NCBI GenBank assembly: GCA_942159475.1
Contig: OW804100.1
Span: forward strand, 7,146,127-7,210,126
DNA from: Sthenelais limicola
Lineage: Eukaryota; Annelida; Polychaeta; Phyllodocida; Sigalionidae
Direction of reading: 5' to 3'
Length of the DNA: 64,000 nucleotides
Shown: positions 271 through 55,665 of the stretch, in pieces
Layout: every line of letters starts with the position of its first letter
Numbering within the stretch: position 1 is the stretch's first letter
Program-made: the position numbers and the translations under genes
The notes under the pieces: generated by a model
Databases searched by the model: none
What the model was told of the DNA's origin: nothing
The model's input: only the letters and a program-made list of their open reading frames with translations

Positions 271-352
271 AGTGCAACCGCGTTAGAGCTGTGCCAAAAC
301 ACCTATTATCACTCAGTCTCAGGCAATATTAAAACAAGATTAAATTGCTTAC

Positions 353-1353: not shown

Positions 1354-4300
1354 TTGGTCGAAAAAAAAGGTGGTCGTCCAAAAGTTGGTCGTAAATAGTT
1401 GGTCGAAAAAAAGGTGGTCGTAAAAAGTGGGTCGTAAAAAATTGGTCGAAATTTAGTTGGTCGAAAAAAAAAGGTGGTCGTCCAAAAGTGGGTCGTAAAT
1501 AGTTGGTCGAAAAAAAGGTGGTCGTAAAAAGTGGGTCGTAAAAAATTGGTCGAAATTTAGTTGGTCGAAAAAAAAGGTGGTCGTCAAAAAGGTGGTCGTC
1601 AAAAAGTTGGTCGTAAAAAGTGGGTCGTACAAAATTGGTCGAAATTTAGTTGGTCGTAAAAAGTGGGTCGTAAAAAATTGGTCGAAATTTAGTTGGTCGA
1701 AAAAAAAGGTGGTCGTCAAAAAGGTGGTCGTCAAAAAGTTAGTCGTAAAAAGTGGGTCGTACAAAATTGGTCGAAATTTAGTTGGTCGAAAAAAAAGGTG
1801 GTCGTCAAAAAGGTGGTCGTCAAAAAGGTGGTCGTAAAAAGTGGGTCGTACAAAATTGGTCGAAATTTAGTTGGTCGTAAAAAGTGGGTCGTAAAAAATT
1901 GGTCGAAATTTAGTTGGTCGAAAAAAAAGGTGGTCGTCAAAAAGGTGGTCGTCAAAAAGGTGGTCGTAAAAAGTGGGTCGTAAAAATATGGTCGAAATTT
2001 AGTTGGTCGAAAAAAAAAGGTGGTCTTCCAAAAGTGGGTCGTAAATAGTTGGTCGAAAAAAAAGGTGGTCATCAAAAAGTTGGTCGAAAAAAAAGTGGTC
2101 GTAAAAAGTGGGTCGTAAAAAATTGGTCGAAATTTAGTTGGTCGAAAAAAAAAGGTGGTCGTCAAAAAGGTGGTCGTAAAAAGTGGGTCGTAAAAAATTG
2201 GTCGAAATTTAGTTGGTCGAAAAAAAGGTGGTCGTCAAAAAGTGGGTCGAAAAAAAGGTGGTCGGAAAAAGTGGGTCGTAAAAATATGGTCGAAATTTAG
2301 TTGGTTCGAAAAAAAAAGGTGGTCGTCCAAAAGTGGGTCGTAAATAGTTGGTCGAAAAAAAGGTGGTCGTAAAAAGTGGGTCGTAAAAAATTGGTCGAAA
2401 TTTAGTTGGTCGGAAAAAAAGGTGGTCGTCAAAAAGGTGGTCGAAAAAAAGGTGGTCGTAAAAAGTGGGTCGTAAAAAATTGGTCGAAATTTAGTTGGTC
2501 GAAAAAAAAAGGTGGTCGTCCAAAAGTGGGTCGTAAATAGTTGGTCGAAAAAAAGGTGGTCGTAAAAAGTGGGTCGTAAAAAATTGGTCGAAATTTAGTT
2601 GGTCGAAAAAAAAGGTGGTCGTCAAAAAGGTGGTCGTAAAAAGTGGGTCGTAAAAATATGGTCGAAATTTAGTTGGTCGAAAAAAAAAGGTGGTCGTCCA
2701 AAAGTGGGTCGTAAATAGTTGGTCGAAAAAAAGGTGGTCGTAAAAAGTGGGTCGTACAAAATTGGTCGAAATTTAGTTGGTCGAAAAAAAAGGTGGTCGT
2801 CAAAAAGGTGGTCGTCAAAAAGTTGGTCGTAAAAAGTGGGTCGTACAAAATTGGTCGAAATTCAGTTGGTCGTAAAAAGTGGGTCGTAAAAAGTGGGTCG
2901 TACAAAATTGGTCGAAATTTAGTTGGTCGTAAAAAGTGGGTCGTAAAAAATTGGTCGAAATTTAGTTGGTCGAAAAAAAAGGTGGTCGTCAAAAAGGTGG
3001 TCGTCAAAAAGTTAGTCGTAAAAAGTGGGTCGTACAAAATTGGTCGAAATTTAGTTGGTCGAAAAAAAAGGTGGTCGTCAAAAAGGTGGTCGTCAAAAAG
3101 TTGGTCGTAAAAAGTGGGTCGTACAAAATTGGTCGAAATTTAGTTGGTCGTAAAAAGTTGGTCGTAAAAAGTGGGTCGTACAAAATTGGTCGAAATTTAG
3201 TTGGTCGTAAAAAGTGGGTCGTAAAAAGTTGGTCGAAATTTAGTTGGTCGAAAAAAAAGGTGGTCGTCAAAAAGGTGGTCGTCAAAAAGTTAGTCGTAAA
3301 AAGTGGGTCGTACAAAATTGGTCGAAATTTAGTTGGTCGAAAAAAAAGGTGGTCGTCAAAAAGGTGGTCGTCAAAAAGGTGGTCGTAAAAAGTGGGTCGT
3401 AAAAATATGGTCGAAATTTAGTTGGTCGAAAAAAAAAGGTGGTCGTCCAAAAGTGGGTCGTAAATAGTTGGTCGAAAAAAAGGTGGTCGTAAAAAGTGGG
3501 TCGTAAAAAATTGGTCGAAATTTAGTTGGTCGAAAAAAAAGGTGGTCGTCAAAAAGGTGGTCGTCAAAAAGTTGGTCGTAAAAAGTGGGTCGTAAAAAAT
3601 TGGTCGAAATTTAGTTGGTCGAAAAAAAAAGGTGGTCGTCAAAAAGGTGGTCGTAAAAAGTGGGTCGTAAAAATATGGTCGAAATTTAGTTGGTCGAAAA
3701 AAAAAGGTGGTCGTCCAAAAGTGGGTCGTAAATAGTTGGTCGAAAAAAAGGTGGTCGTAAAAAGTGGGTCGTAAAAAATTGGTCGAAATTTAGTTGGTCG
3801 AAAAAAAAGGTGGTCGTCAAAAAGGTGGTCGTCAAAAAGTTAGTCGTAAAAAGTGGGTCGTACAAAATTGGTCGAAATTTAGTTGGTCGTAAAAAGTGGG
3901 TCGTAAAAAGTGGGTCGTACAAAATTGGTCGAAATTTAGTTGGTCGTAAAAAGTGGGTCGTAAAAAATTGGTCGAAATTTAGTTGGTCGAAAAAAAAGGT
4001 GGTCGTCAAAAAGGTGGTCGTCAAAAAGTTAGTCGTAAAAAGTGGGTCGTACAAAATTGGTCGAAATTTAGTTGGTCGAAAAAAAAGGTGGTCGTCAAAA
4101 AGGTGGTCGTCAAAAAGTTGGTCGTAAAAAGTGGGTCGTATAAAATTGGTCGAAATTTAGTTGGTCGTAAAAAGTTGGTCGTAAAAAGTGGGTCGTACAA
4201 AATTGGTCGAAATTTAGTTGGTCGTAAAAAGTGGGTCGTAAAAAGTTGGTCGAAATTTAGTTGGTCGAAAAAAAAGGTGGTCGTCAAAAAGGTGGTCGTC

Positions 4301-5223
4301 AAAAAGTTAGTCGTAAAAAGTGGGTCGTACAAAATTGGTCGAAATTTAGTTGGTCGAAAAAAAAGGTGGTCGTCAAAAAGGTGGTCGTCAAAAAGGTGGT
4401 CGTAAAAAGTGGGTCGTAAAAATATGGTCAAAATTTAGTTGGTCGAAAAAAAAAGGTGGTCGTCCAAAAGTGGGTCGTAAATAGTTGGTCGAAAAAAAGG
4501 TGGTCGTAAAAAGTGGGTCGTAAAAAATTGGTCGAAATTTAGTTGGTCGAAAAAAAAGGTGGTCGTCAAAAAGGTGGTCGTCAAAAAGTTGGTCGTAAAA
4601 AGTGGGTCGTACAAAATTGGTCGAAATTTAGTTGGTCGTAAAAAGTGGGTCGTAAAAAATTGGTCGAAATTTAGTTGGTCGAAAAAAAAGGTGGTCGTCA
4701 AAAAGGTGGTCGTCAAAAAGGTGGTCGTAAAAAGTGGGTCGTAAAAATATGGTCGAAATTTAGTTGGTCGAAAAAAAAAGGTGGTCGTCCAAAAGTGGGT
4801 CGTAAATAGTTGGTCGAAAAAAAAGGTGGTCATCAAAAAGTTGGTCGAAAAAAAGGTGGTCGTAAAAAGTGGGTCGTAAAAAATTGGTCGAAATTTAGTT
4901 GGTCGAAAAAAAAGGTGGTCGTCAAAAAGGTGGTCGTCAAAAAGGTGGTCGTCAAAAAGGTGTGCGTAAAAAGTGGGTCGTAAAAATATGGTCGAAATTT
5001 AGTTGGTCGAAAAAAAAAGGTGGTCGTCCAAAAGTGGGTCGTAAATAGTTGGTCGAAAAAAAAGGTGGTCATCAAAAAGTTGGTCGAAAAAAAGGTGGTC
5101 GTAAAAAGTGGGTCGTAAAAAATTGGTCGAAATTTAGTTGGGTCGAAAAAAAATGTGGTCGTCAAAAAGGTGGTCGTCAAAAAGGTGGTCGTAAAAAGTG
5201 GGTCGTAAAAATATGGTCGAAAT

Positions 5224-6790
5224 TTAGTTGGTCGAAAAAAAAAGGTGGTCGTCCAAAAGTGGGTCGTAAATAGTTGGTCGAAAAAAAGGTGGTCGTAAAA
5301 AGTGGGTCGTAAAAAATTGGTCGAAATTTAGTTGGTCGAAAAAAAAGGTGGTCGTCAAAAAGGTGGTCGTCAAAAAGTTGGTCGTAAAAAGTGGGTCGTA
5401 CAAAATTGGTCGAAATTTAGTTGGTCGTAAAAAGTGGGTCGTAAAAAGTGGGTCGTACAAAATTGGTCGAAATTTAGTTGGTCGTAAAAAGTGGGTCGTA
5501 AAAAATTGGTCGAAATTTAGTTGGTCGAAAAAAAAGGTGGTCGTCAAAAAGGTGGTCGTCAAAAAGTTAGTCGTAAAAAGTGGGTCGTACAAAATTGGTC
5601 GAAATTTAGTTGGTCGAAAAAAAAGGTGGTCGTCCAAAAGGTGGTCGTCAAAAAGGTGGTCGTAAAAAGTGGGTCGTAAAAATATGGTCGAAATTTAGTT
5701 GGTCGAAAAAAAAAGGTGGTCGTCCAAAAGTGGGTCGTAAATAGTTGGTCGAAAAAAAGGTGGTCGTAAAAAGTGGGTCGTAAAAAATTGGTCGAAATTT
5801 AGTTGGTCGAAAAAAAAGGTGGTCGTCAAAAAGGTGGTCGTCAAAAAGTTGGTCGTAAAAAGTGGGTCGTACAAAATTGGTCGAAATTTAGTTGGTCGTA
5901 AAAAGTGGGTCGTAAAAAATTGGTCGAAATTTAGTTGGTCGAAAAAAAAGGTGGTCGTCAAAAAGGTGGTCGTCAAAAAGTTAGTCGTAAAAAGTGGGTC
6001 GTACAAAATTGGTCGAAATTTAGTTGGTCGAAAAAAAAGGTGGTCGTCAAAAAGGTGGTCGTCAAAAAGGTGGTCGTAAAAAGTGGGTCGTACAAAATTG
6101 GTCGAAATTTAGTTGGTCGTAAAAAGTGGGTCGTAAAAAATTGGTCGAAATTTAGTTGGTCGAAAAAAAAGGTGGTCGTCAAAAAGGTGGTCGTCAAAAA
6201 GGTGGTCGTAAAAAGTGGGTCGTAAAAATATGGTCGAAATTTAGTTGGTCGAAAAAAAAAGGTGGTCTTCCAAAAGTGGGTCGTAAATAGTTGGTCGAAA
6301 AAAAAGGTGGTCATCAAAAAGTTGGTCGAAAAAAAAGTGGTCGTAAAAAGTGGGTCGTAAAAAATTGGTCGAAATTTAGTTGGTCGAAAAAAAGGGCGGT
6401 CGTCAAAAAGGTGGTCGTAAAAAGTGGGTCGTAAAAAATTGGTCGAAATTTAGTTGGTCGAAAAAAAAAGGTGGTCGTCCAAAAGTTGGTCGTAAATAGT
6501 TGGTCGAAAAAAAGGTGGTCGTAAAAAGTGGGTCGTAAAAAATTGGTCGAAATTTAGTTGGTCGAAAAAAAAAGGTGGTCGTCCAAAAGTGGGTCGTAAA
6601 TAGTTGGTCGAAAAAAAGGTGGTCGTAAAAAGTGGGTCGTAAAAAATTGGTCGAAATTTAGTTGGTTGAAAAAAAAAGGTGGTCGTCAAAAAGGTGGTCG
6701 TAAAAAGTGGGTCGTAAAAATATGGTCGAAATTTAGTTGGTCGAAAAAAAAAGGTGGTCGTCCAAAAGTGGGTCGTAAATAGTTGGTCGA
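5224..6790 (+). repeat. Satellite segment also present at 40590-42156
   Basis: The order of monomers and several rare variants (GGTGGTCTTCC, AAAAAAGTGGTCG, GGGCGGTCG and GTTGGTTGAAA) recur at an exact offset of 35,366 bp. Part of the same pattern (about 1577-2165, including GGTCTTCC) also occurs at an offset of 4,242 bp upstream. The segment is therefore a dispersed duplication inside the array. Confidence 0.85.
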
Positions 6791-9700
6791 AAAAAAGGTG
6801 GTCGTAAAAAGTGGGTCGTAAAAAATTGGTCGAAATTTAGTTGGTCGAAAAAAAAGGTGGTCGTCAAAAAGGTGGTCGTCAAAAAGTTAGTCGTAAAAAG
6901 TGGGTCGTACAAAATTGGTCGAAATTTAGTTGGTCGTAAAAAGTGGGTCGTAAAAAGTGGGTCGTACAAAATTGGTCGAAATTTAGTTGGTCGTAAAAAG
7001 TGGGTCGTAAAAAATTGGTCGAAATTTAGTTGGTCGAAAAAAAAGGTGGTCGTCAAAAAGGTGGTCGTCAAAAAGTTAGTCGTAAAAAGTGGGTCGTACA
7101 AAATTGGTCGAAATTTAGTTGGTCGAAAAAAAAGGTGGTCGTCAAAAAGGTGGTCGTCAAAAAGTTGGTCGTAAAAAGTGGGTCGTACAAAATTGGTCGA
7201 AATTTAGTTGGTCGTAAAAAGTGGGTCGTAAAAAGTGGGTCGTACAAAATTGGTCGAAATTTAGGTGGTCGTAAAAAGTGGGTCGTAAAAAATTGGTCGA
7301 AATTTAGTTGGTCGAAAAAAAAGGTGGTCGTCAAAAAGGTGGTCGTCAAAAAGTTAGTCGTAAAAAGTGGGTCGTACAAAATTGGTCGAAATTTAGTTGG
7401 TCGAAAAAAAAGGTGGTCGTCAAAAAGGTGGTCGTCAAAAAGGTGGTCGTAAAAAGTGGGTCGTAAAAATATGGTCGAAACTTAGTTGGTCGAAAAAAAA
7501 AGGTGGTCGTCCAAAAGTGGGTCGTAAATAGTTGGTCGAAAAAAAGGTGGTCGTAAAAAGTGGGTCGTAAAAAATTGGTCGAAATTTAGTTGGTCGAAAA
7601 AAAAGGTGGTCGTCAAAAAGGTGGTCGTCAAAAAGTTGGTCGTAAAAAGTGGGTCGTACAAAATTGGTCGAAATTTAGTTGGTCGTAAAAAGTGGGTCGT
7701 AAAAAATTGGTCGAAATTTAGTTGGTCGAAAAAAAAGGTGGTCGTCAAAAAGGTGGTCGTCAAAAAGTTAGTCGTAAAAAGTGGGTCGTACAAAATTGGT
7801 CGAAATTTAGTTGGTCGAAAAAAAAGGTGGTCGTCAAAAAGGTGGTCGTCAAAAAGTTGGTCGTAAAAAGTGGGTCGTACAAAATTGGTCGAAATTTAGT
7901 TGGTCGTAAAAAGTGGGTCGTAAAAAATTGGTCGAAATTTAGTTGGTCGAAAAAAAAGGTGGTCGTCAAAAAGTTAGTCGTAAAAAGTGGGTCGTACAAA
8001 ATTGGTCGAAATTTAGTTGGTCGAAAAAAAAGGTGGTCGTTAAAAAGGTGGTCGTCAAAAAGTTGGTCGTAAAAAGTGGGTCGTAAAAAATTGGTCGAAA
8101 TTTAGTTGGTCGAAAAAAAAAGGTGGTCGTCCAACAGTGGGTCGTAAATAGTTGGTCGAAAAAAAGGTGGTCGTAAAAAGTGGGTCGTAAAAAATTGGTC
8201 GAAATTTAGTTGGTCGAAAAAAAAGGTGGTCGTCAAAAAGGTGGTCGTCAAAAAGTTAGTCGTAAAAAGTGGGTCGTACAAAATTGGTCGAAATTTAGTT
8301 GGTCGAAAAAAAAGGTGGTCGTCAAAAAGGTGGTCGTCAAAAAGGTGGTCGTAAAAAGTGGGTCGTAAAAATATGGTCGAAATTTAGTTGGTCGAAAAAA
8401 AAAGGTGGTCGTCCAAAAGTGGGTCGTAAATAGTTGGTCGAAAAAAAGGTGGTCGTAAAAAGTGGGTCGTAAAAAATTGGTCGAAATTTAGTTGGTCGAA
8501 AAAAAAGGTGGTCGTCAAAAAGGTGGTCGTCAAAAAGTTGGTCGTAAAAAGTGGGTCGTACAAAATTGGTCGAAATTTAGTTGGTCGTAAAAAGTGGGTC
8601 GTAAAAAATTGGTCGAAATTTAGTTGGTCGAAAAAAAGGGCGGTCGTCAAAAAGGTGGTCGTAAAAAAGGTGGTCGTAAAAAGTGGGTCGTACAAAATTG
8701 GTCGAAATTTAGTTGGTCGTAAAAAGTTGGTCGTAAAAAGTGGGTCGTACAAAATTGGTCGAAATTTAGTTGGTCGTAAAAAGTGGGTCGTAAAAAGTTG
8801 GTCGAAATTTAGTTGGTCGAAAAAAAAGGTGGTCGTCAAAAAGGTGGTCGTCAAAAAGTTAGTCGTAAAAAGTGGGTCGTACAAAATTGGTCGAAATTTA
8901 GTTGTTGGAAAAAAAGGTGGTCGTCAAAAAGGTGGTCGTCAAAAAGTTGGTCGTAAAAAGTGGGTCGTACAAAATTGGTCGAAATTTAGTTGGTCGTAAA
9001 AAGTTGGTCGTAAAAAGTGGGTCGTACAAAATTGGTCGAAATTTAGTTGGTCGTAAAAAGTGGGTCGTAAAAAGTTGGTCGAAATTTAGTTGGTCGAAAA
9101 AAAAGGTGGTCGTCAAAAAGGTGGTCGTCAAAAAGTTAGTCGTAAAAAGTGGGTCGTACAAAATTGGTCGAAATTTAGTTGGTCGAAAAAAAAGGTGGTC
9201 GTCAAAAAGGTGGTCGTCAAAAAGGTGGTCGTAAAAAGTGGGTCGTAAAAATATGGTCGAAATTTAGTTGGTCGAAAAAAAAAGGTGGTCGTCCAAAAGT
9301 GGGTCGTAAATAGTTGGTCGAAAAAAAGGTGGTCGTAAAAAGTGGGGCGTAAAAAATTGGTCGAAATTTAGTTGGTCGAAAAAAAAGGTGGTCGTCAAAA
9401 AGGTGGTCGTCAAAAAGTTGGTCGTAAAAAGTGGGTCGTAAAAAATTGGTCGAAATTTAGTTGGTCGAAAAAAAAAGGTGGTCGTCAAAAAGGTGGTCGT
9501 AAAAAGTGGGTCGTAAAAATATGGTCGAAATTTAGTTGGTCGAAAAAAAAAGGTGGTCGTCCAAAAGTGGGTCGTAAATAGTTGGTCGAAAAAAAGGTGG
9601 TCGTAAAAAGTGGGTCGTAAAAAATTGGTCGAAATTTAGTTGGTCGAAAAAAAAGGTGGTCGTCAAAAAGGTGGTCGTCAAAAAGTTAGTCGTAAAAAGT

Positions 9701-11899
9701 GGGTCGTACAAAATTGGTCGAAATTTAGTTGGTCGTAAAAAGTGGGTCGTAAAAAGTGGGTCGTACAAAATTGGTCGAAATTTAGTTGGTCGTAAAAAGT
9801 GGGTCGTAAAAAATTGGTCGAAATTTAGTTGGTCGAAAAAAAAGGTGGTCGTCAAAAAGGTGGTCGTCAAAAAGTTAGTCGTAAAAAGTGGGTCGTACAA
9901 AATTGGTCGAAATTTAGTTGGTCGAAAAAAAAGGTGGTCGTCAAAAAGGTGGTCGTCAAAAAGTTGGTCGTAAAAAGTGGGTCGTACAAAATTGGTCGAA
10001 ATTTAGTTGGTCGTAAAAAGTGGGTCGTAAAAAGTGGGTCGTACAAAATTGGTCGAAATTTAGGTGGTCGTAAAAAGTGGGTCGTAAAAAATTGGTCGAA
10101 ATTTAGTTGGTCGAAAAAAAAGGTGGTCGTCAAAAAGGTGGTCGTCAAAAAGTTAGTCGTAAAAAGTGGGTCGTACAAAATTGGTCGAAATTTAGTTGGT
10201 CGAAAAAAAAGGTGGTCGTCAAAAAGGTGGTCGTCAAAAAGGTGGTCGTAAAAAGTGGGTCGTAAAAATATGGTCGAAATTTAGTTGGTCGAAAAAAAAA
10301 GGTGGTCGTCCAAAAGTGGGTCGTAAATAGTTGGTCGAAAAAAAGGTGGTCGTAAAAAGTGGGTCGTAAAAAATTGGTCGAAATTTAGTTGGTCGAAAAA
10401 AAAGGTGGTCGTCAAAAAGGTGGTCGTCAAAAAGTTGGTCGTAAAAAGTGGGTCGTACAAAATTGGTCGAAATTTAGTTGGTCGTAAAAAGTGGGTCGTA
10501 AAAAATTGGTCGAAATTTAGTTGGTCGAAAAAAAAGGTGGTCGTCAAAAAGGTGGTCGTCAAAAAGGTGGTCGTAAAAAGTGGGTCGTAAAAATATGGTC
10601 GAAATTTAGTTGGTCGAAAAAAAAAGGTGGTCGTCCAAAAGTGGGTCGTAAATAGTTGGTCGAAAAAAAAGGTGGTCATCAAAAAGTTGGTCGAAAAAAA
10701 GGTGGTCGTAAAAAGTGGGTCGTAAAAAATTGGTCGAAATTTAGTTGGTCGAAAAAAAAGGTGGTCGTCAAAAAGGTGGTCGTCAAAAAGGTGGTCGTCA
10801 AAAAGGTGTGCGTAAAAAGTGGGTCGTAAAAATATGGTCGAAATTTAGTTGGTCGAAAAAAAAAGGTGGTCGTCCAAAAGTGGGTCGTAAATAGTTGGTC
10901 GAAAAAAAAGGTGGTCATCAAAAAGTTGGTCGAAAAAAAGGTGGTCGTAAAAAGTGGGTCGTAAAAAATTGGTCGAAATTTAGTTGGGTCGAAAAAAAAT
11001 GTGGTCGTCAAAAAGGTGGTCGTAAAAAGTGGGTCGTAAAAATATGGTCGAAATTTAGTTGGTCGAAAAAAAAAGGTGGTCGTCCAAAAGTGGGTCGTAA
11101 ATAGTTGGTCGAAAAAAAGGTGGTCGTAAAAAGTGGGTCGTAAAAAATTGGTCGAAATTTAGTTGGTCGAAAAAAAAGGTGGTCGTCAAAAAGGTGGTCG
11201 TCAAAAAGTTGGTCGTAAAAAGTGGGTCGTACAAAATTGGTCGAAATTTAGTTGGTCGTAAAAAGTGGGTCGTAAAAAGTGGGTCGTACAAAATTGGTCG
11301 AAATTTAGTTGGTCGTAAAAAGTGGGTCGTAAAAAATTGGTCGAAATTTAGTTGGTCGAAAAAAAAGGTGGTCGTCAAAAAGGTGGTCGTCAAAAAGTTA
11401 GTCGTAAAAAGTGGGTCGTACAAAATTGGTCGAAATTTAGTTGGTCGAAAAAAAAGGTGGTCGTCAAAAAGGTGGTCGTCAAAAAGTTAGTCGTAAAAAG
11501 TGGGTCGTACAAAATTGGTCGAAATTTAGTTGGTCGTAAAAAGTGGGTCGTAAAAAGTGGGTCGTACAAAATTGGTCGAAATTTAGTTGGTCGTAAAAAG
11601 TGGGTCGTAAAAAATTGGTCGAAATTTAGTTGGTCGAAAAAAAAGGTGGTCGTCAAAAAGGTGGTCGTCAAAAAGTTAGTCGTAAAAAGTGGGTCGTACA
11701 AAATTGGTCGAAATTTAGTTGGTCGAAAAAAAAGGTGGTCGTCAAAAAGGTGGTCGTCAAAAAGTTGGTCGTAAAAAGTGGGTCGTATAAAATTGGTCGA
11801 AATTTAGTTGGTCGTAAAAAGTTGGTCGTAAAAAGTGGGTCGTACAAAATTGGTCGAAATTTAGTTGGTCGTAAAAAGTGGGTCGTAAAAAGTTGGTCG

Positions 11900-33872: not shown

Positions 33873-33951
33873 GAAAAAAAAGGTGGTCGTCAAAAAGGTG
33901 GTCGTCAAAAAGGTGGTCGTAAAAAGTGGGTCGTAAAAATATGGTCGAAAT

Positions 33952-38500: not shown

Positions 38501-40589
38501 CGTAAATAGTTGGTCGAAAAAAAAGGTGGTCATCAAAAAGTTGGTCGAAAAAAAGGTGGTCGTAAAAAGTGGGTCGTAAAAAATTGGTCGAAATTTAGTT
38601 GGTCGAAATTTAGTTGGTCGTCAAAAAGGTGGTCGTCAAAAAGTTAGTCGTAAAAAGTGGGTCGTAAAAAATTGGTCGAAATTTAGTTGGTCGAAAAAAA
38701 AGGTGGTCGTCAAAAAGGTGGTCGTCAAAAAGGTGGTCGTAAAAAGTGGGTCGTAAAAATATGGTCGAAATTTAGTTGGTCGAAAAAAAAAGGTGGTCGT
38801 CCAAAAGTGGGTCGTAAATAGTTGGTCGAAAAAAAGGTGGTCGTAAAAAGTGGGTCGTAAAAAATTGGTCGAAATTTAGTTGGTCGAAAAAAAAGGTGGT
38901 CGTCAAAAAGGTGGTCGTCAAAAAGTTGGTCGTAAAAAGTGGGTCGTACAAAATTGGTCGAAATTTAGTTGGTCGTAAAAAGTGGGTCGTAAAAAATTGG
39001 TCGAAATTTAGTTGGTCGAAAAAAAAGGTGGTCGTCAAAAAGGTGGTCGTCAAAAAGTTAGTCGTAAAAAGTGGGTCGTACAAAATTGGTCGAAATTTAG
39101 TTGGTCGAAAAAAAAGGTGGTCGTCAAAAAGGTGGTCGTAAAAAGTGGGTCGTAAAAATATGGTCGAAATTTAGTTGGTCGAAAAAAAAAGGTGGTCGTC
39201 CAAAAGTGGGTCGTAAATAGTTGGTCGAAAAAAAGGTGGTCGTAAAAAGTGGGTCGTAAAAAATTGGTCGAAATTTAGTTGGTCGAAAAAAAAGGTGGTC
39301 GTCAAAAAGGTGGTCGTCAAAAAGTTGGTCGTAAAAAGTGGGTCGTACAAAATTGGTCGAAATTTAGTTGGTCGTAAAAAGTGGGTCGTAAAAAATTGGT
39401 CGAAATTTAGTTGGTCGAAAAAAAAGGTGGTCGTCAAAAAGGTGGTCGTCAAAAAGTTAGTCGTAAAAAGTGGGTCGTACAAAATTGGTCGAAATTTAGT
39501 TGGTCGAAAAAAAAGGTGGTCGTCAAAAAGGTGGTCGTCAAAAAGGTGGTCGTAAAAAGTGGGTCGTAAAAATATGGTCGAAATTTAGTTGGTCGAAAAA
39601 AAAAGGTGGTCGTCCAAAAGTGGGTCGTAAATAGTTGGTCGAAAAAAAGGTGGTCGTAAAAAGTGGGTCGTAAAAAATTGGTCGAAATTTAGTTGGTCGA
39701 AAAAAAAGGTGGTCGTCAAAAAGGTGGTCGTCAAAAAGTTGGTCGTAAAAAGTGGGTCGTACAAAATTGGTCGAAATTTAGTTGGTCGTAAAAAGTTGGT
39801 CGTAAAAAGTGGGTCGTACAAAATTGGTCGAAATTTAGTTGGTCGTAAAAAGTGGGTCGTAAAAAGTTGGTCGAAATTTAGTTGGTCGAAAAAAAAGGTG
39901 GTCGTCAAAAAGGTGGTCGTCAAAAAGTTAGTCGTAAAAAGTGGGTCGTACAAAATTGGTCGAAATTTAGTTGGTCGAAAAAAAAGGTGGTCGTCAAAAA
40001 GGTGGTCGTCAAAAAGGTGGTCGTAAAAAGTGGGTCGTAAAAATATGGTCGAAATTTAGTTGGTCGAAAAAAAAAGGTGGTCGTCCAAAAGTGGGTCGTA
40101 AATAGTTGGTCGAAAAAAAGGTGGTCGTAAAAAGTGGGTCGTAAAAAATTGGTCGAAATTTAGTTGGTCGAAAAAAAAGGTGGTCGTCAAAAAGGTGGTC
40201 GTCAAAAAGGTGGTCGTCAAAAAGTTGGTCGTAAAAAGTGGGTCGTACAAAATTGGTCGAAATTTAGTTGGTCGTAAAAAGTGGGTCGTAAAAAATTGGT
40301 CGAAATTTAGTTGGTCGAAAAAAAAGGTGGTCGTCAAAAAGGTGGTCGTAAAAAGTGGGTCGTAAAAATATGGTCGAAATTTAGTTGGTCGAAAAAAAAA
40401 GGTGGTCGTCCAAAAGTGGGTCGTAAATAGTTGGTCGAAAAAAAAGGTGGTCATCAAAAAGTTGGTCGAAAAAAAGGTGGTCGTAAAAAGTGGGTCGTAA
40501 AAAATTGGTCGAAATTTAGTTGGTCGAAAAAAAAGGTGGTCGTCAAAAAGGTGGTCGTAAAAAGTGGGTCGTAAAAATATGGTCGAAAT

Positions 40590-42156
40590 TTAGTTGGTCG
40601 AAAAAAAAAGGTGGTCGTCCAAAAGTGGGTCGTAAATAGTTGGTCGAAAAAAAGGTGGTCGTAAAAAGTGGGTCGTAAAAAATTGGTCGAAATTTAATTG
40701 GTCGAAAAAAAAGGTGGTCGTCAAAAAGGTGGTCGTCAAAAAGTTGGTCGTAAAAAGTGGGTCGTACAAAATTGGTCGAAATTTAGTTGGTCGTAAAAAG
40801 TGGGTCGTAAAAAGTGGGTCGTACAAAATTGGTCGAAATTTAGTTGGTCGTAAAAAGTGGGTCGTAAAAAATTGGTCGAAATTTAGTTGGTCGAAAAAAA
40901 AGGTGGTCGTCAAAAAGGTGGTCGTCAAAAAGTTAGTCGTAAAAAGTGGGTCGTACAAAATTGGTCGAAATTTAGTTGGTCGAAAAAAAAGGTGGTCGTC
41001 AAAAAGGTGGTCGTCAAAAAGGTGGTCGTAAAAAGTGGGTCGTAAAAATATGGTCGAAATTTAGTTGGTCGAAAAAAAAAGGTGGTCGTCCAAAAGTGGG
41101 TCGTAAATAGTTGGTCGAAAAAAAGGTGGTCGTAAAAAGTGGGTCGTAAAAAATTGGTCGAAATTTAGTTGGTCGAAAAAAAAGGTGGTCGTCAAAAAGG
41201 TGGTCGTCAAAAAGTTGGTCGTAAAAAGTGGGTCGTACAAAATTGGTCGAAATTTAGTTGGTCGTAAAAAGTGGGTCGTAAAAAATTGGTCGAAATTTAG
41301 TTGGTCGAAAAAAAAGGTGGTCGTCAAAAAGGTGGTCGTCAAAAAGTTAGTCGTAAAAAGTGGGTCGTACAAAATTGGTCGAAATTTAGTTGGTCGAAAA
41401 AAAAGGTGGTCGTCAAAAAGGTGGTCGTCAAAAAGGTGGTCGTAAAAAGTGGGTCGTACAAAATTGGTCGAAATTTAGTTGGTCGTAAAAAGTGGGTCGT
41501 AAAAAATTGGTCGAAATTTAGTTGGTCGAAAAAAAAGGTGGTCGTCAAAAAGGTGGTCGTCAAAAAGGTGGTCGTAAAAAGTGGGTCGTAAAAATATGGT
41601 CGAAATTTAGTTGGTCGAAAAAAAAAGGTGGTCTTCCAAAAGTGGGTCGTAAATAGTTGGTCGAAAAAAAAGGTGGTCATCAAAAAGTTGGTCGAAAAAA
41701 AAGTGGTCGTAAAAAGTGGGTCGTAAAAAATTGGTCGAAATTTAGTTGGTCGAAAAAAAGGGCGGTCGTCAAAAAGGTGGTCGTAAAAAGTGGGTCGTAA
41801 AAAATTGGTCGAAATTTAGTTGGTCGAAAAAAAAAGGTGGTCGTCCAAAAGTTGGTCGTAAATAGTTGGTCGAAAAAAAGGTGGTCGTAAAAAGTGGGTC
41901 GTAAAAAATTGGTCGAAATTTAGTTGGTCGAAAAAAAAAGGTGGTCGTCCAAAAGTGGGTCGTAAATAGTTGGTCGAAAAAAAGGTGGTCGTAAAAAGTG
42001 GGTCGTAAAAAATTGGTCGAAATTTAGTTGGTTGAAAAAAAAAGGTGGTCGTCAAAAAGGTGGTCGTAAAAAGTGGGTCGTAAAAATATGGTCGAAATTT
42101 AGTTGGTCGAAAAAAAAAGGTGGTCGTCCAAAAGTGGGTCGTAAATAGTTGGTCGA
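40590..42156 (+). repeat. Distant partner of the 5224-6790 satellite segment
   Basis: Its monomer order matches 5224-6790 at an offset of 35,366 bp, including the rare GTTGGTTGAAA at about 42029 and GGTCTTCC at about 41633. A private variant, AATTTAATTGG at about 40691, shows some divergence. The match stops near 42156, where the two contexts differ. Confidence 0.8.
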
Positions 42157-45100
42157 AAAAAAGGTGGTCGTAAAAAGTGGGTCGTACAAAATTGGTCGAA
42201 ATTTAGTTGGTCGTAAAAAGTGGGTCGTAAAAAGTGGGTCGTACAAAATTGGTCGAAATTTAGTTGGTCGTAAAAAGTGGGTCGTAAAAAATTGGTCGAA
42301 ATTTAGTTGGTCGAAAAAAAAGGTGGTCGTCAAAAAGGTGGTCGTCAAAAAGTTAGTCGTAAAAAGTGGGTCGTACAAAATTGGTCGAAATTTAGTTGGT
42401 CGAAAAAAAAGGTGGTCGTCAAAAAGGTGGTCATCAAAAAGTTGGTCGTAAAAAGTGGGTCGTACAAAATTGGTCGAAATTTAGTTGGTCGTAAAAAGTG
42501 GGTCGTAAAAAATTGGTCGAAATTTAGTTGGTCGAAAAAAAAGGTGGTCGTCAAAAAGGTGGTCGTCAAAAAGTTAGTCGTAAAAAGTTGGTCGTACAAA
42601 ATTGGTCGAAATTTAGTTGGTCGAAAAAAAAGGTGGTCGTCAAAAAGGTGGTCGTCAAAAAGGTGGTCGTAAAAAGTGGGTCGTAAAAATATGGTCGAAA
42701 TTTAGTTGGTCGAAAAAAAAAGGTGGTCGTCCAAAAGTGGGTCGTAAATAGTTGGTCGAAAAAAAAGTGGTCGTAAAAAGTGGGTCGTACAAAATTGGTC
42801 GAAATTTAGTTGGTCGAAAAAAAAGGTGGTCGTCAAAAAGGTGGTCGTCAAAAAGGTGGTCGTAAAAAGTGGGTCGTAAAAATATGGTCGAAATTTAGTT
42901 GGTCGAAAAAAAAAGGTGGTCGTCCAAAAGTGGGTCGTAAATAGTTGGTCGAAAAAAAAGGTGGTCATCAAAAAGTTGGTCGAAAAAAAGGTGGTCGTAA
43001 AAAGTGGGTCGTAAAAAATTGGTCGAAATTTAGTTGGTCGAAAAAAAAGGTGGTCGTCAAAAAGGTGGTCGTCAAAAAGTTGGTCGTAAAAAGTGGGTCG
43101 TACAAAATTGGTCGAAATTTAGTTGGTCGTAAAAAGTGGGTCGTAAAAAGTGGGTCGTACAAAATTGGTCGAAATTTAGTTGGTCGTAAAAAGTGGGTCG
43201 TAAAAAATTGGTCGAAATTTAGTTGGTCGAAAAAAAAGGTGGTCGTCAAAAAGGTGGTCGTCAAAAAGTTAGTCGTAAAAAGTGGGTCGTACAAAATTGG
43301 TCGAAATTTAGTTGGTCGAAAAAAAAGGTGGTCGTCAAAAAGGTGGTCGTCAAAAAGTTGGTCGTAAAAAGTGGGTCGTACAAAATTGGTCGAAATTTAG
43401 TTGGTCGTAAAAAGTGGGTCGTAAAAAATTGGTCGAAATTTAGTTGGTCGAAAAAAAAGGTGGTCGTCAAAAAGGTGGTCGTCAAAAAGTTAGTCGTAAA
43501 AAGTTGGTCGTACAAAATTGGTCGAAATTTAGTTGGTCGAAAAAAAAGGTGGTCGTCAAAAAGGTGGTCGTCAAAAAGGTGGTCGTAAAAAGTGGGTCGT
43601 AAAAATATGGTCGAAATTTAGTTGGTCGAAAAAAAAAGGTGGTCGTCCAAAAGTGGGTCGTAAATAGTTGGTCGAAAAAAAGGTGGTCGTAAAAAGTGGG
43701 TCGTACAAAATTGGTCGAAATTTAGTTGGTCGAAAAAAAAGGTGGTCGTCAAAAAGGTGGTCGTCAAAAAGGTGGTCGTAAAAAGTGGGTCGTAAAAATA
43801 TGGTCGAAATTTAGTTGGTCGAAAAAAAAAGGTGGTCGTCCAAAAGTGGGTCGTAAATAGTTGGTCGAAAAAAAAGGTGGTCATCAAAAAGTTGGTCGAA
43901 AAAAAGGTGGTCGTAGAAAGTGGGTCGTAAAAAATTGGTCGAAATTTAGTTGGTCGAAAAAAAAGGTGGTCGTCAAAAAGGTGGTCGTCAAAAAGGTGGT
44001 CGTAAAAAGTGGGTCGTAAAAATATGGTCGAAATTTAGTTGGTCGAAAAAAAAGGTGGTCGTCAAAAAGGTGGTCGTCAAAAAGGCGGTCGTCAAAAAGG
44101 TGGTCGTAAAAAGTGGGTCGTAAAAAATTGGTCGAAATTTAGTTGGTCGAAAAAAAAGGTGGTCGTCAAAAAGGTGGTCGTCAAAAAGTTGGTCGTAAAA
44201 AGTGGGTCGTACAAAATTGGTCGAAATTTAGTTGGTCGTAAAAAGTGGGTCGTAAAAAATTGGTCGAAATTTAGTTGGTCGAAAAAAAAGGTGGTCGTCA
44301 AAAAGGTGGTCGTCAAAAAGGTGGTCGTCAAAAAGTTAGTCGTAAAAAGTGGGTCGTACAAAATTGGTCGAAATTTAGTTGGTCGAAAAAAAAGGTGGTC
44401 GTCAAAAAGGTGGTCGTCAAAAAGGTGGTCGTAAAAAGTGGGTCGTAAAAATATGGTCGAAATTTAGTTGGTCGAAAAAAAAAGGTGGTCGTCCAAAAGT
44501 GGGTCGTAAATAGTTGGTCGAAAAAAAGGTGGTCGTAAAAAGTGGGTCGTAAAAAATTGGTCGAAATTTAGTTGGTCGAAAAAAAAGGTGGTCGTCAAAA
44601 AGGTGGTCGTCAAAAAGTTGGTCGTAAAAAGTGGGTCGTACAAAATTGGTCGAAATTTAGTTGGTCGTAAAAAGTGGGTCGTAAAAAATTGGTCGAAATT
44701 TAGTTGGTCGAAAAAAAAGGTGGTCGTCAAAAAGGTGGTCGTCAAAAAGTTAGTCGTAAAAAGTGGGTCGTACAAAATTGGTCGAAATTTAGTTGGTCGA
44801 AAAAAAAGGTGGTCGTCAAAAAGGTGGTCGTCAAAAAGTTGGTCGTAAAAAGTGAGTCGTAAAAAATTGGTCGAAATTTAGTTGGTCGAAAAAAAAGGTG
44901 GTCGTCAAAAAGGTGGTCGTCAAAAAGGTGGTCGTAAAAAGTGGGTCGTAAAAATATGGTCGAAATTTAGTTGGTCGAAAAAAAAAGGTGGTCGTCCAAA
45001 AGTGGGTCGTAAATAGTTGGTCGAAAAAAAGGTGGTCGTAAAAAGTGGGTCGTAAAAAATTGGTCGAAATTTAGTTGGTCGAAAAAAAAGGTGGTCGTCA

Positions 45101-45199
45101 AAAAGGTGGTCGTCAAAAAGTTGGTCGTAAAAAGTGGGTCGTACAAAATTGGTCGAAATTTAGTTGGTCGTAAAAAGTGGGTCGTAAAAAATTGGTCGA

Positions 45200-48100
45200 A
45201 AAAAAAGGTGGTCGTCAAAAAGGTGGTCGTCAAAAAGTTAGTCGTAAAAAGTGGGTCGTACAAAATTGGTCGAAATTTAGTTGGTCGAAAAAAAAGGTGG
45301 TCGTCAAAAAGGTGGTCGTCAAAAAGGTGGTCGTAAAAAGTGGGTCGTAAAAATATGGTCGAAATTTAGTTGGTCGAAAAAAAAAGGTGGTCGTCCAAAA
45401 GTGGGTCGTAAATAGTTGGTCGAAAAAAAAGGTGGTCATCAAAAAGTTGGTCGAAAAAAAGGTGGTCGTAAAAAGTGGGTCGTAAAAAATTGGTCGAAAT
45501 TTAGTTGGTCGAAAAAAAAGGTGGTCGTCAAAAAGGTGGTCGTAAAAAGTGGGTCGTAAAAAATTGGTCGAAATTTAGTTGGTCGAAAAAAAAAGGTGGT
45601 CGTCCAAAAGTTGGTCGTAAATAGTTGGTCGAAAAAAAGGTGGTCGTAAAAAGTGGGTCGTAAAAAATTGGTCGAAATTTAGTTGGTCGAAAAAAAAAGG
45701 TGGTCGTCCAAAAGTGGGTCGTAAATAGTTGGTCGAAAAAAAGGTGGTCGTAAAAAGTGGGTCGTAAAAAATTGGTCGAAATTTAGTTGGTCGAAAAAAA
45801 AGGTGGTCGTCAAAAAGGTGGTCGTAAAAAGTGGGTCGTAAAAATATGGTCGAAATTTAGTTGGTCGAAAAAAAAAGGTGGTCGTCCAAAAGTGGGTCGT
45901 AAATAGTTGGTCGAAAAAAAGGTGGTCGTAAAAAGTGGGTCGTAAAAAATTGGTCGAAATTTAGTTGGTCGAAAAAAAAGGTGGTCGTCAAAAAGGTGGT
46001 CGTCAAAAAGTTGGTCGTAAAAAGTGGGTCGTACAAAATTGGTCGAAATTTAGTTGGTCGTAAAAAGTGGGTCGTAAAAAATTGGTCGAAATTTAGTTGG
46101 TCGAAAAAAAAGGTGGTCGTCAAAAAGGTGGTCGTCAAAAAGTTAGTCGTAAAAAGTGGGTCGTACAAAATTGGTCGAAATTTAGTTGGTCGAAAAAAAA
46201 GGTGGTCGTCAAAAAGGTGGTCGTCAAAAAGGTGGTCGTAAAAAGTGGGTCGTAAAAATATGGTCGAAATTTAGTTGGTCGAAAAAAAAAGGTGGTCGTC
46301 CAAAAGTGGGTCGTAAATAGTTGGTCGAAAAAAAGGTGGTCGTAAAAAGTGGGTCGTAAAAAATTGGTCGAAATTTAGTTGGTCGAAAAAAAAGGTGGTC
46401 GTCAAAAAGGTGGTCGTCAAAAAGTTGGTCGTAAAAAGTGGGTCGTACAAAATTGGTCGAAATTTAGTTGGTCGTAAAAAGTGGGTCGTAAAAAATTGGT
46501 CGAAATTTAGTTGGTCGAAAAAAAAGGTGGTCGTAAATAGTTGGTCGAAAAAAAAGGTGGTCATCAAAAAGTTGGTCGAAAAAAAGGTGGTCGTAAAAAG
46601 TGGGTCGTAATAAATTGGTCGAAATTTAGTTGGTCGAAAAAAAAGGTGGTCGTCAAAAAGGTGGTCGTCAAAAAGGTGGTCGTAAAAAGTGGGTCGTAAA
46701 AATATGGTCGAAATTTAGTTGGTCGAAAAAAAAGGTGGTCGTCCAAAAGTGGGTCGTAAATAGTTGGTCGAAAAAAAGGTGGTCGTAAAAAGTGGGTCGT
46801 AAAAAATTGGTCGAAATTTAGTTGGTCGAAAAAAAAGGTGGTCGTCAAAAAGGTGGTCGACAAAAAGTTGGTCGTAAAAAGTGGGTCGTACAAAATTGGT
46901 CGAAATTTAGTTGGTCGTAAAAAGTGGGTCGTAAAAAATTGGTCGAAATTTAGTTGGTCGAAAAAAAAGGTGGTCGTCAAAAAGGTGGTCTTCAAAAAGG
47001 TGGTCGTAAAAAGTGGGTCGTAAAAATATGGTCGAAATTTAGTTGGTCGAAAAAAAAAGGTGGTCGTCCAAAAGTGGGTCGTAAATAGTTGGTCGAAAAA
47101 AAGGTGGTCGTAAAAAGTGGGTCGTAAAAAATTGGTCGAAATTTAGTTGGTCGAAAAAAAAAGGTGGTCGTCAAAAAGGTGGTCGACAAAAAGTTGGTCG
47201 TAAAAAGTGGGTCGTACAAAATTGGTCGAAATTTAGTTGGTCGTAAAAAGTGGGTCGTAAAAAATTGGTCGAAATTTAGTTGGTCGAAAAAAAAGGTGGT
47301 CGTCAAAAAGGTGGTCGTCAAAAAGGTGGTCGTAAAAAGTGGGTCGTAAAAATATGGTCGAAATTTAGTTGGTCGAAAAAAAAAGGTGGTCGTCCAAAAG
47401 TGGGTCGTAAATAGTTGGTCGAAAAAAAAGGTGGTCGTCAAAAAGTTGGTCGAAAAAAAGGTGGTCGTAAAAAGTGGGTCGTAAAAAATTGGTCGAAATT
47501 TAGTTGGTCGAAAAAAAAGGTGGTCGTCAAAAAGGTGGTCGTCAAAAAGTTGGTCGTAAAAAGTGGGTCGTAAAAAATTGGTCGAAATTTAGTTGGTCGG
47601 AAAAAAAAGGTGGTCGTCAAAAAGGTGGTCGTCAAAAAGTTGGTCGTAAAAAGTGGGTCGTACAAAATTGGTCGAAATTTAGTTGGTCGTAAAAAGTGGG
47701 TCGTAAAAAATTGGTCGAAATTTAGTTGGTCGAAAAAAAAGGTGGTCGTCAAAAAGGTGGTCGTCAAAAAGGTGGTCGTCAAAAAGGTGGTCGTAAAAAG
47801 TGGGTCGTAAAAATATGGTCGAAATTTAGTTGGTCGAAAAAAAAAGGTGGTCGTCCAAAAGTGGGTCGTAAATAGTTGGTCGAAAAAAAAGGTGGTCGTC
47901 AAAAAGTTGGTCGAAAAAAAGGTGGTCGTAAAAAGTGGGTCGTAAAAAATTGGTCGAAATTTAGTTGGTCGAAAAAAAAGGTGGTCGTCAAAAAGGTGGT
48001 CGTCAAAAAGTTGGTCGTAAAAAGTGGGTCGTAAAAAATTGGTCGAAATTTAGTTGGTCGAAAAAAAAAGGTGGTCGTCAAAAAGTGGGTCGTAAATAGT

Positions 48101-51100
48101 TGGTCGAAAAAAAAGGTGGTCGTCAAAAAGTTGGTCGAAAAAAAGGTGGTCGTAAAAAGTGGGTCGTAAAAAATTGGTCGAAATTTAGTTGGTCGAAAAA
48201 AAAGGTGGTCGTCAAAAAGTGGGTCGAAAAAAAGGTGGTCGTAAAAAGTGGGTCGTAAAAAATTGGTCGAAATTTAGTTGGTCGAAAAAAAAGGTGGTCG
48301 TCAAAAAGGTGGTCGTCAAAAAGTTAGTCGTAAAAAGTGGGTCGTACAAAATTGGTCGAAATTTAGTTGGTCGAAAAAAAAGGTGGTCGTCAAAAAGGTG
48401 GTCGTCAAAAAGGTGGTCGTAAAAAGTGGGTCGTAAAAATATGGTCGAAATTTAGTTGGTCGAAAAAAAAAGGTGGTCGTCCAAAAGTGGGTCGTAAATA
48501 GTTGGTCGAAAAAAAAGGTGGTCATCAAAAAGTTGGTCGAAAAAAAGGTGGTCGTAAAAAGTGGGTCGTAAAAAATTGGTCGAAATTTAGTTGGTCGAAA
48601 AAAAAGGTGGTCGTCAAAAAGGTGGTCGTAAAAAGTGGGTCGTAAAAAATTGGTCGAAATTTAGTTGGTCGAAAAAAAAAGGTGGTCGTCCAAAAGTTGG
48701 TCGTAAATAGTTGGTCGAAAAAAAGGTGGTCGTAAAAAGTGGGTCGTAAAAAATTGGTCGAAATTTAGTTGGTCGAAAAAAAAAGGTGGTCGTCCAAAAG
48801 TGGGTCGTAAATAGTTGGTCGAAAAAAAGGTGGTCGTAAAAAGTGGGTCGTAAAAAATTGGTCGAAATTTAGTTGGTCGAAAAAAAAGGTGGTCGTCAAA
48901 AAGGTGGTCGTAAAAAGTGGGTCGTAAAAATATGGTCGAAATTTAGTTGGTCGAAAAAAAAAGGTGGTCGTCCAAAAGTGGGTCGTAAATAGTTGGTCGA
49001 AAAAAAGGTGGTCGTAAAAAGTGGGTCGTAAAAAATTGGTCGAAATTTAGTTGGTCGAAAAAAAAGGTGGTCGTCAAAAAGGTGGTCGTCAAAAAGTTGG
49101 TCGTAAAAAGTGGGTCGTACAAAATTGGTCGAAATTTAGTTGGTCGTAAAAAGTGGGTCGTAAAAAATTGGTCGAAATTTAGTTGGTCGAAAAAAAAGGT
49201 GGTCGTCAAAAAGGTGGTCGTCAAAAAGTTAGTCGTAAAAAGTGGGTCGTACAAAATTGGTCGAAATTTAGTTGGTCGAAAAAAAAGGTGGTCGTCAAAA
49301 AGGTGGTCGTCAAAAAGGTGGTCGTAAAAAGTGGGTCGTAAAAATATGGTCGAAAATATGGTCGAAATTAAAAAATTGGTCGAAATTTAGTTGGTCGAAA
49401 AAAAAGGTGGTCGTCAAAAAGGTGGTCGTCAAAAAGTTGGTCGTAAAAAGTGGGTCGTACAAAATTGGTCGAAATTTAGTTGGTCGTAAAAAGTGGGTCG
49501 TAAAAAATTGGTCGAAATTTAGTTGGTCGAAAAAAAAGGTGGTCGTAAATAGTTGGTCGAAAAAAAAGGTGGTCATCAAAAAGTTGGTCGAAAAAAAGGT
49601 GGTCGTAAAAAGTGGGTCGTAATAAATTGGTCGAAATTTAGTTGGTCGAAAAAAAAGGTGGTCGTCAAAAAGGTGGTCGTCAAAAAGGTGGTCGTAAAAA
49701 GTGGGTCGTAAAAATATGGTCGAAATTTAGTTGGTCGAAAAAAAAGGTGGTCGTCCAAAAGTGGGTCGTAAATAGTTGGTCGAAAAAAAGGTGGTCGTAA
49801 AAAGTGGGTCGTAAAAAATTGGTCGAAATTTAGTTGGTCGAAAAAAAAGGTGGTCGTCAAAAAGGTGGTCGACAAAAAGTTGGTCGTAAAAAGTGGGTCG
49901 TACAAAATTGGTCGAAATTTAGTTGGTCGTAAAAAGTGGGTCGTAAAAAATTGGTCGAAATTTAGTTGGTCGAAAAAAAAGGTGGTCGTCAAAAAGGTGG
50001 TCTTCAAAAAGGTGGTCGTAAAAAGTGGGTCGTAAAAATATGGTCGAAATTTAGTTGGTCGAAAAAAAAAGGTGGTCGTCCAAAAGTGGGTCGTAAATAG
50101 TTGGTCGAAAAAAAGGTGGTCGTAAAAAGTGGGTCGTAAAAAATTGGTCGAAATTTAGTTGGTCGAAAAAAAAAGGTGGTCGTCAAAAAGGTGGTCGACA
50201 AAAAGTTGGTCGTAAAAAGTGGGTCGTACAAAATTGGTCGAAATTTAGTTGGTCGTAAAAAGTGGGTCGTAAAAAATTGGTCGAAATTTAGTTGGTCGAA
50301 AAAAAAGGTGGTCGTCAAAAAGGTGGTCGTCAAAAAGGTGGTCGTAAAAAGTGGGTCGTAAAAATATGGTCGAAATTTAGTTGGTCGAAAAAAAAAGGTG
50401 GTCGTCCAAAAGTGGGTCGTAAATAGTTGGTCGAAAAAAAAGGTGGTCGTCAAAAAGTTGGTCGAAAAAAAGGTGGTCGTAAAAAGTGGGTCGTAAAAAA
50501 TTGGTCGAAATTTAGTTGGTCGAAAAAAAAGGTGGTCGTCAAAAAGGTGGTCGTCAAAAAGTTGGTCGTAAAAAGTGGGTCGTAAAAAATTGGTCGAAAT
50601 TTAGTTGGTCGGAAAAAAAAGGTGGTCGTCAAAAAGGTGGTCGTCAAAAAGTTGGTCGTAAAAAGTGGGTCGTACAAAATTGGTCGAAATTTAGTTGGTC
50701 GTAAAAAGTGGGTCGTAAAAAATTGGTCGAAATTTAGTTGGTCGAAAAAAAAGGTGGTCGTCAAAAAGGTGGTCGTCAAAAAGGTGGTCGTCAAAAAGGT
50801 GGTCGTAAAAAGTGGGTCGTAAAAATATGGTCGAAATTTAGTTGGTCGAAAAAAAAAGGTGGTCGTCCAAAAGTGGGTCGTAAATAGTTGGTCGAAAAAA
50901 AAGGTGGTCGTCAAAAAGTTGGTCGAAAAAAAGGTGGTCGTAAAAAGTGGGTCGTAAAAAATTGGTCGAAATTTAGTTGGTCGAAAAAAAAGGTGGTCGT
51001 CAAAAAGGTGGTCGTCAAAAAGTTGGTCGTAAAAAGTGGGTCGTAAAAAATTGGTCGAAATTTAGTTGGTCGAAAAAAAAAGGTGGTCGTCAAAAAGTGG

Positions 51101-51215
51101 GTCGTAAATAGTTGGTCGAAAAAAAAGGTGGTCGTCAAAAAGTTGGTCGAAAAAAAGGTGGTCGTAAAAAGTGGGTCGTAAAAAATTGGTCGAAATTTAG
51201 TTGGTCGAAAAAAAA
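45200..51215 (+). repeat. Two tandem copies of a 3.0-kb satellite block
   Basis: Copy 1 is about 45200-48285 and copy 2 about 48286-51215. The shift is 3,086 bp in the left part and 3,012 bp in the right part. Copy 2 therefore lacks 74 bases, and an odd scar (ATATGGTCGAAAATATGG, then GAAATTAAAAAATTGG, 49342-49382) sits at the deletion. Shared rare variants are GGTCGACAAAAAG, GGTCTTCAAAAAGG and GTCGTAATAAATTGG. This is the last block before the array flips orientation. Confidence 0.85.
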
Positions 51216-51441
51216 GGTGGTCGTCAAAAAGGTGGTCGTCAAAAAGGTGGTCGTAAAAAGTGGGTCGTACAAAATTGGTCGAAATTTAGTTGGTCGTAAA
51301 AAGTGGGTCGTAAAAAATTGGTCGAAATTTAGTTGGTCGAAAAAAAAGGTGGTCGTCAAAAAGGTGGTCGTCAAAAAGGTGGTCGTAAACAGTGGGTCGT
51401 AAAAATATGGTCGAAATTTAGTTGGTCGAAATTTAGTTTAC

Positions 51442-52098: not shown

Positions 52099-52346
52099 GT
52101 TGCCTGACTAAACGGCATAGGGAAGTAGTATTCCTCCCGCACTAAGAAAATGAAAACGAAAATGAACATTTTGAGCAATATCAATCTTAACGTATTAAAT
52201 CTTCACATAAATTTTGCGTAACCTAAACATCAATATTAACGTGAATCTTCACAGAAATTGTTTGCAATCTTAACGTCTATATTAACGGGAGTCTTCACAT
52301 TGATATTAATGTAAGATATGGGTAAGATTTATGTTAGATAAGCCGG
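52099..52346. repeat. AT-rich right flank with degenerate ATCTTCACA repeats
   Basis: The satellite ends abruptly at 52098. From about 52178 to 52315 the words ATATTAACGT and AATCTTCACA/AGTCTTCACA recur three times in an irregular tandem of roughly 45 bp. No coding sequence is seen. Confidence 0.5.
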
Positions 52347-55154: not shown

Positions 55155-55158
55155 TTAA

Positions 55159-55661: not shown

Positions 55662-55665
55662 TTAA

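Follow-up and report, generated by a model that had tools for sequence, protein, structure and literature searches.

The regional centromere of fission yeast consists of a core that lies between inverted outer repeats. In relatives of Candida, putative centromeres have been called from a single inverted-repeat locus per chromosome that is alike across chromosomes; according to the same account, all eight such loci of C. parapsilosis coincide with CENP-A in one strain, and two centromeres are located at other sites in another isolate (PMC7292649). In Drosophila melanogaster, functional centromeres were reported to be located on complex islands between satellites (PMC6516634). Few animal centromeres have been assembled.

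Here, a 64,000-bp stretch of the genome of the scale worm Sthenelais limicola (C7:7,146,127-7,210,126; referred to as the window) was analysed in the context of the complete assembly of 1,130,627,326 bp, which comprises 161 contigs, including nine chromosome-scale sequences (designated C1 to C9). The eight known chromosome lengths (161.9, 156.7, 150.5, 137.0, 119.4, 118.5, 84.2 and 68.1 Mb), combined with a length of at least 121.8 Mb for C5, indicate that these nine sequences represent at least 98.9% of the assembly. The mitochondrial contig (C161) was observed to carry ND2 directly upstream of COX1 (C161:9,086-10,426). This COX1 shares 94% identity with a Phyllodocida cluster, 91% with Alentiana and 90% with Branchipolynoe, both of them genera of polynoid scale worms.

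The window was found to cover one end of a larger block that consists, in order, of a satellite array (array 1), whose inverted arm adjoins a non-satellite core of ~100 kb, this core, and a second satellite array (array 2). This block is probably centromeric or immediately pericentromeric, with a likelihood that we place at about two in three, and array 1 would represent one of its two satellite flanks. The main finding is the block bounded by satellite and not the array itself. The features of the window are listed in Table 1.

Table 1. Positions of the satellite, flank and core features identified in the window
Feature	Window positions	Strand	Remarks
Left outer flank (LF)	1..1351	+	Adjoins array 1
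Array 1, main part	1352..51438	GGTCG on +	14.8-bp GGTCG monomers in ~89-bp blocks
4,782-bp exact duplication, first copy	21910..26691	+	Offset 7,221
4,782-bp exact duplication, second copy	29131..33912	+	Offset 7,221
Inverted satellite arm adjoining the core	51439..52098	-	Older monomer variants only
Shared core, first 12 kb	52096..64000	+	Sharp junction with the arm near 52,098
51-bp satellite piece	55397..55447	-	7 bp lost; C1 and C2 cores have an empty site

An initial annotation of this DNA had described a ~50-kb, insertion-free GGTCG satellite with a small monomer vocabulary and a strong higher-order arrangement, all of which was borne out. Tolerant segmentation resolved array 1 into 3,385 monomers with a mean length of 14.79 bp, and 3,239 exact GGTCG anchors were located between window positions 1,356 and 51,428. 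Neighbouring GGTCG pairs spaced 12-18 bp apart were observed 3,091 times, whereas 100 first-order Markov simulations yielded 57 such pairs on average and never more than 78. The GGTCG-to-GGTCG intervals measured 14-17 bp in 3,087 of 3,238 cases and did not exceed 33 bp, indicating that array 1 contains no foreign insertion. The 15 commonest interval sequences, including two that represent double monomers in which the anchor is mutated, accounted for 96% of all intervals. Repeated runs of intervals reached a length of 312, compared with 6-7 in 20 order-shuffles, and the entropy of the next monomer decreased from 3.71 to 0.72 bits once the previous two monomers were known. The monomers are arranged in near-fixed order in blocks with a mean length of ~89 bp, each ending in the GGTCGAAATTTAGTT monomer, of which 566 copies were counted. 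Furthermore, the length of the A-tract was shown to depend on its slot (9 A in 127/134, 8 A in 277/285 and 7 A in 132/132 cases), indicative of copying that is faster than homopolymer slippage and of a consensus that is not noisy. The inverted continuation and the 51-bp piece within the core correct this annotation, in which the inversion had been missed.

Exact repeats within array 1 have an upper limit of 4,782 bp, and 97% of the array possesses a second copy of at least 400 bp at 98.5% identity or more elsewhere in the array. As is characteristic of a satellite, array 1 thus combines a long head-to-tail arrangement, ordered multi-monomer blocks and local homogenisation; on its own it reads as an ordinary new satellite that has grown by repeated local duplication.

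Monomer strings searched in PMC full text did not retrieve a report of this satellite, one match being to a paper on Vibrio. Viral contigs yielded either no matches or only chance 16-mers (36 stretches), prokaryote contigs yielded a single chance match (Aliiruegeria), and none of these 37 stretches contained more than three successive GGTCG motifs at 12-18-bp spacing. A coding role of the array was rejected, as its longest stop-free frame (203 aa) consists of monomers. The observed/expected CpG ratio was 2.5 in the array and 0.70-0.79 in the flanks, and only 6 of 50 distinct rare single-base variants in the array were CpG transitions, which argues against strong methylation decay. Mapping of the unit over the assembly, as the initial annotation had proposed, identified 4,230 exact copies of a 22-mer of the satellite, 448 of which lie in the window, corresponding to approximately half a Mb of satellite in the 1.13-Gb genome. 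The array matches listed (best 19 of 746 candidates) were all located at block loci.

At approximately window position 51,439 the satellite changes strand, and 44 minus-strand GGTCG motifs follow up to position 52,098. This arm was found to lack the derived variants that are common in the main array. In the best-powered slot, the derived form was present in none of five cases in the arm vs 127 of 132 in the main array (Fisher, P=7e-7); four other slots likewise showed no derived form in the arm, with P-values of 0.13-0.50 each when taken alone and with two slots overlapping. In the stretches read from both C2 arms, the second C1 array (sampled in two parts, 1,970 bp) and C8, the older forms of the arm recurred: the F and L variants were absent, and the K variant was observed in 0/8, 0/10, 1/6 and 0/3 cases across four stretches. 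The C2 right arm contains a single M form, and one GGTCATC, which marks N, was observed in the second C1 array; these marks are therefore not strictly private to the window. The first C1 array (30 kb) has F, K and L in common with the window, and neither M nor N. The longest exact block in common between the C1 and C7 arrays measured 407 bp, compared with 4,782 bp within C7, which, together with the older forms in the arm, points to local homogenisation of the arrays and to the arm as an older lineage.

The DNA to the right of array 1, the shared nature of which had been overlooked in the initial annotation, was shown to recur on most chromosomes. A 1,202-bp junction flank was represented by eight full-length copies at 99-100% identity, one each on C1-C4 and C6-C9, the next-best matches being ~235-bp repeat pieces at 94% or less (best 40 of 6,229 candidates). 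The same eight chromosomes were identified, again at 99-100%, with 1,000 bp of core interior containing a myosin II tail exon, the only other long matches among all 38 candidates being two on C2 at 94-95%. On C5, no copy of the junction flank or the core interior was found; satellite probing covered the chromosomes other than C5. The distance between core interior and junction ranged from 60,675 to 113,201 bp among the eight copies, which consequently differ by large insertions or deletions. The block thus occupies a single locus on eight of the nine chromosome-scale sequences, in each case internally (0.06-0.61 of chromosome length). Eight copies placed at random would fall on eight different chromosomes with a probability of about 0.007 (length-weighted, with C5 guessed at 125 Mb). 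An identical distribution would be expected of some other element that occurs once on each chromosome, for example a site of meiotic pairing or cohesion. We know of no animal pairing or cohesion element of such size, and no Rfam match was obtained in the 140 kb searched, meaning that rDNA and 5S are absent from those 140 kb; an element of this kind is decidedly improbable.

Immediately to the right of window position 52,096, C2 agrees with the window at 898 of 900 bases and C1 at 652 of 652, and over 3.9 and 3.7 kb, respectively, 11 and 10 aligned substitutions and a few indels were counted. The core was compared closely between C1 and C7, and by pieces for the other six copies. On C7 it ends between 7,304,300 and 7,306,001 (~106 kb). 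The C1 and C7 cores were aligned over a total of 36.4 kb (5,849 bp at 99.80% and 30,591 bp at 99.75%), the C1 sequence being covered up to 3.7 kb and from 16.4 kb beyond the junction. An additional 13 C7 core probes all matched C1, at 98.7-100%; in one case the match extended over 198 of the 300 bases. For the pieces compared, near-identity of the core across chromosomes thus amounts to 98.7-100%. With more than 1 kb at more than 90% identity at several loci, the core also has the properties of a segmental duplication.

The C1 core contains a gypsy-type RNase H/integrase frame (65,771,885-65,774,113), and myosin II tail exons were observed within it at C1:65,776,552-65,777,067 and 65,781,520-65,781,987. 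Copies of the myosin exon region at 94-95% identity were found only at C2:74,872,400 and 77,419,869, near the C2 block (77.82 Mb), which suggests that the myosin-containing part of the core came from this region of C2. A degenerate short array of 15-17-bp GTTGGTCGTAAAAAA-like monomers, located within the core at C1:65,801,300-65,801,560, is possibly a relic or progenitor of the satellite. Several small repeats were observed in the core portion of the window: a MITE-like repeat of ~240 bp with TGGGTCAGATTTTCAGAAAATGTACAATTGG ends, represented by some ten complete or incomplete copies (52,862-63,160), a 1.6-kb element, identified by eye, whose inverted ends are rich in AAGGGTTCTT and whose interior is intron-like (53,315-54,935), and a MITE-like repeat with CCACTGGCTCGCT ends, present as a tandem pair (74%; 55,154-56,105). 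The latter repeat also flanks the first C1 array on both sides. That array begins inside a truncated MITE (C1:65,731,919-65,731,990), a fuller copy of which lies on C7, ~550 bp to the left of the window. A 150-aa frame at window positions 56,762-57,214 had no Pfam or database relative.

The 51-bp satellite piece within the C7 core has an exact match in the C8 arm, less than 300 bp from the C8 junction, and a match with a single mismatch in the C2 arm. It looks like satellite-templated filler, probably introduced by break repair on C7 after the copies had separated. Such private differences bear on whether one collapsed or repeated block was placed in many scaffolds as an assembly artefact, which near-identical copies on many chromosomes could reflect, the assembly being judged here from its sequence. 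This insertion is absent from C1 and C2, however, and arm lengths, array variants, outer flanks and the 61-113 kb spacing also differ among copies. Moreover, no N is present in the window or at any other locus examined in this genome, and the slot-specific A-tracts are unlike a noisy consensus, rendering an artefact very improbable.

On all eight chromosomes, the satellite was shown to start at the junction, with GGTCG in the direction of the window's arm. Probes detected a strand switch in array 1 on C1, C2, C3, C4, C7 and C8. On C6 and C9, where they spanned ~27 and ~37 kb, respectively, no such switch was observed. Array 2 was found beyond the core on all seven chromosomes probed (C1, C3, C4, C6, C7, C8 and C9); on C7 it carries minus-strand GGTCG from the core end to between 7,333,100 and 7,336,001, past which C7 is again identical to C1 (100% in two probes). 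Based on these probes, the outer part of array 1 and array 2 are oppositely oriented on six of the seven chromosomes, being convergent on C1, C3, C4, C7 and C8 and divergent on C9, and have the same orientation on C6.

The outer flanks allowed the orientation of the core to be assessed. Among the best 40 of 3,397 candidates, LF was present at near-full length (1-1,348) beside the C6 and C9 satellite at 98-99% and partially on C3; parts 1-280 and 809-1,290 of LF are dispersed repeats. On C6 and C9, LF adjoins array 2 and not array 1, which implied a turned core, and the other flank (RF) was set beforehand as the test. RF was located beyond array 1 on C9 (98%) and beyond array 2 on C1, C2, C4 and C7 (~100%), with none at the C3, C6 and C8 loci, among the matches listed (best 40 of 123 candidates); RF is itself repetitive, with copies at 96-97% in several other places. 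These placements yield the order LF-core-RF on C7 and RF-core-LF on C9, and judging from them the core sits in opposite orientation on these two chromosomes relative to its outer flanks. Private DNA, as compared with the C1/C7 stretches, was identified beside the arrays at the C8 array end, on C6 from 19,706,001 and at C9 probe 14,545,001.

Alternatively, the presence of a satellite-bounded segment on eight chromosomes may be unrelated to centromere function and result from a recent burst of segmental duplication between chromosomes or from the activity of a giant mobile unit. The core identity of 99-100% would then imply a recent event, and the restriction of the 94-95% myosin pieces to C2 (74.87 and 77.42 Mb), near its 77.82-Mb copy, is as if the segment had originated there. 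Against this stand the single copy per chromosome, with no second full copy found, the differing outer flanks, the flipped core and the lack of a target-site duplication, as no common word of 7 bp or more was present in the 60 bp outside both satellite edges; we consider such a spread unlikely. The same lack of a target-site duplication bears on a foldback-type transposon whose terminal repeats have grown into satellite, as described for Tetris in Drosophila virilis. The short tandem repeats and the head-to-head inverted arms adjoining the segment resemble Tetris/TIR-220, in which tandem repeats in inverted arms expand into satellite, while the Tetris units measure ~220 bp, lie inside the transposon and are accompanied by 8-10-bp target-site duplications, none of which was found in the worm block (PMC4079207). 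The 'element' would furthermore exceed 100 kb, and, as the shared DNA extends beyond array 2, its arms do not form its ends. A foldback element, the first idea considered, was abandoned once the shared DNA exceeded 50 kb and is now highly improbable for the block, though a foldback origin could explain how the satellite arose.

The centromeric or pericentromeric reading is the one that we favour. An internal, satellite-flanked block that occurs once each on eight of nine chromosomes and is homogenised between non-homologues represents a strong centromere candidate. The centromeric or pericentromeric role suggested by the initial annotation has thereby gained strong indirect support; as to function, we infer that the kinetochore forms at the block. 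The continual homogenisation that it had put forward was recovered within the array and, unexpectedly, also in the core between chromosomes, while its suggestion of a sex-chromosome satellite found no support. By analogy with known systems, it is tentatively proposed, with somewhat less than even confidence, that the block may constitute an animal centromere of a homogenised inverted-repeat type, having a ~100-kb non-satellite core and oppositely oriented minisatellite arrays, being ~99-100% identical across non-homologues, flippable and present on nearly all chromosomes.

Under the favoured centromeric or pericentromeric reading, clustering of centromeres would allow sequence exchange between non-homologous copies by gene conversion, break-induced replication or whole-block exchange, and the core would thereby be kept alike. 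Unequal exchange inside each array would duplicate blocks of 1-7 kb, by which array arrangements would diverge and the core would not, and recombination between oppositely oriented arrays could turn the core around. The satellite would correspond to flanking heterochromatin and the core would be the likelier kinetochore platform, a choice between core and satellite that the sequence does not decide.

The centromere reading is weakest in two respects, namely that no copy was found on C5 and that the satellite amounts to roughly half a Mb, a small quantity by the standard of animal centromeres; the block could simply be the neighbour of an unassembled centromere. The presence of myosin II exons and a gypsy-type frame in the core counts against this reading, as does the private DNA beside some arrays (C8, C6 and C9). 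In addition, the direct arrays of C6 and the divergent arrays of C9 are not all explained by one crossover, and further steps are needed. The three scale-worm papers among the literature matches listed made no mention of a centromere, which is not proof of absence in print. A long non-satellite core with chromosome-specific marks would render centromere exchange, satellite turnover and core inversion readable per base. Were CENP-A located on the core, eight chromosomes would offer the same DNA for comparison; were it located on the arrays, the core would serve as a natural tracer of pericentromeric exchange.

Both the fission yeast centromere and the worm block consist of a core between flanking repeats, which in the worm are inverted on six of the seven chromosomes probed, although they differ in scale and lineage and the worm centromere is putative. 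The centromeres of Candida tropicalis, as described, occupy a single site on each chromosome, with inverted repeats on both sides of a core and high identity across all chromosomes, an architecture that the worm block approaches on eight of nine chromosomes; their core of ~3 kb and repeats of 3-4 kb contrast with a ~100-kb core and arrays of tens of kb in the worm, and CENP-A has been demonstrated on them, whereas the worm block is a candidate centromere (PMC7292649). Similar to the islands of Drosophila melanogaster, which comprise complex, retroelement-rich DNA between satellite arrays (PMC6516634), the C1 core carries a gypsy-type frame with arrays on both sides, a likeness of presence and not of enrichment. 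Conversely, the islands are reported to differ in size and arrangement at each centromere, with only G2/Jockey-3 common to all, whereas the worm core is common to eight chromosomes at 99-100% (PMC6516634).
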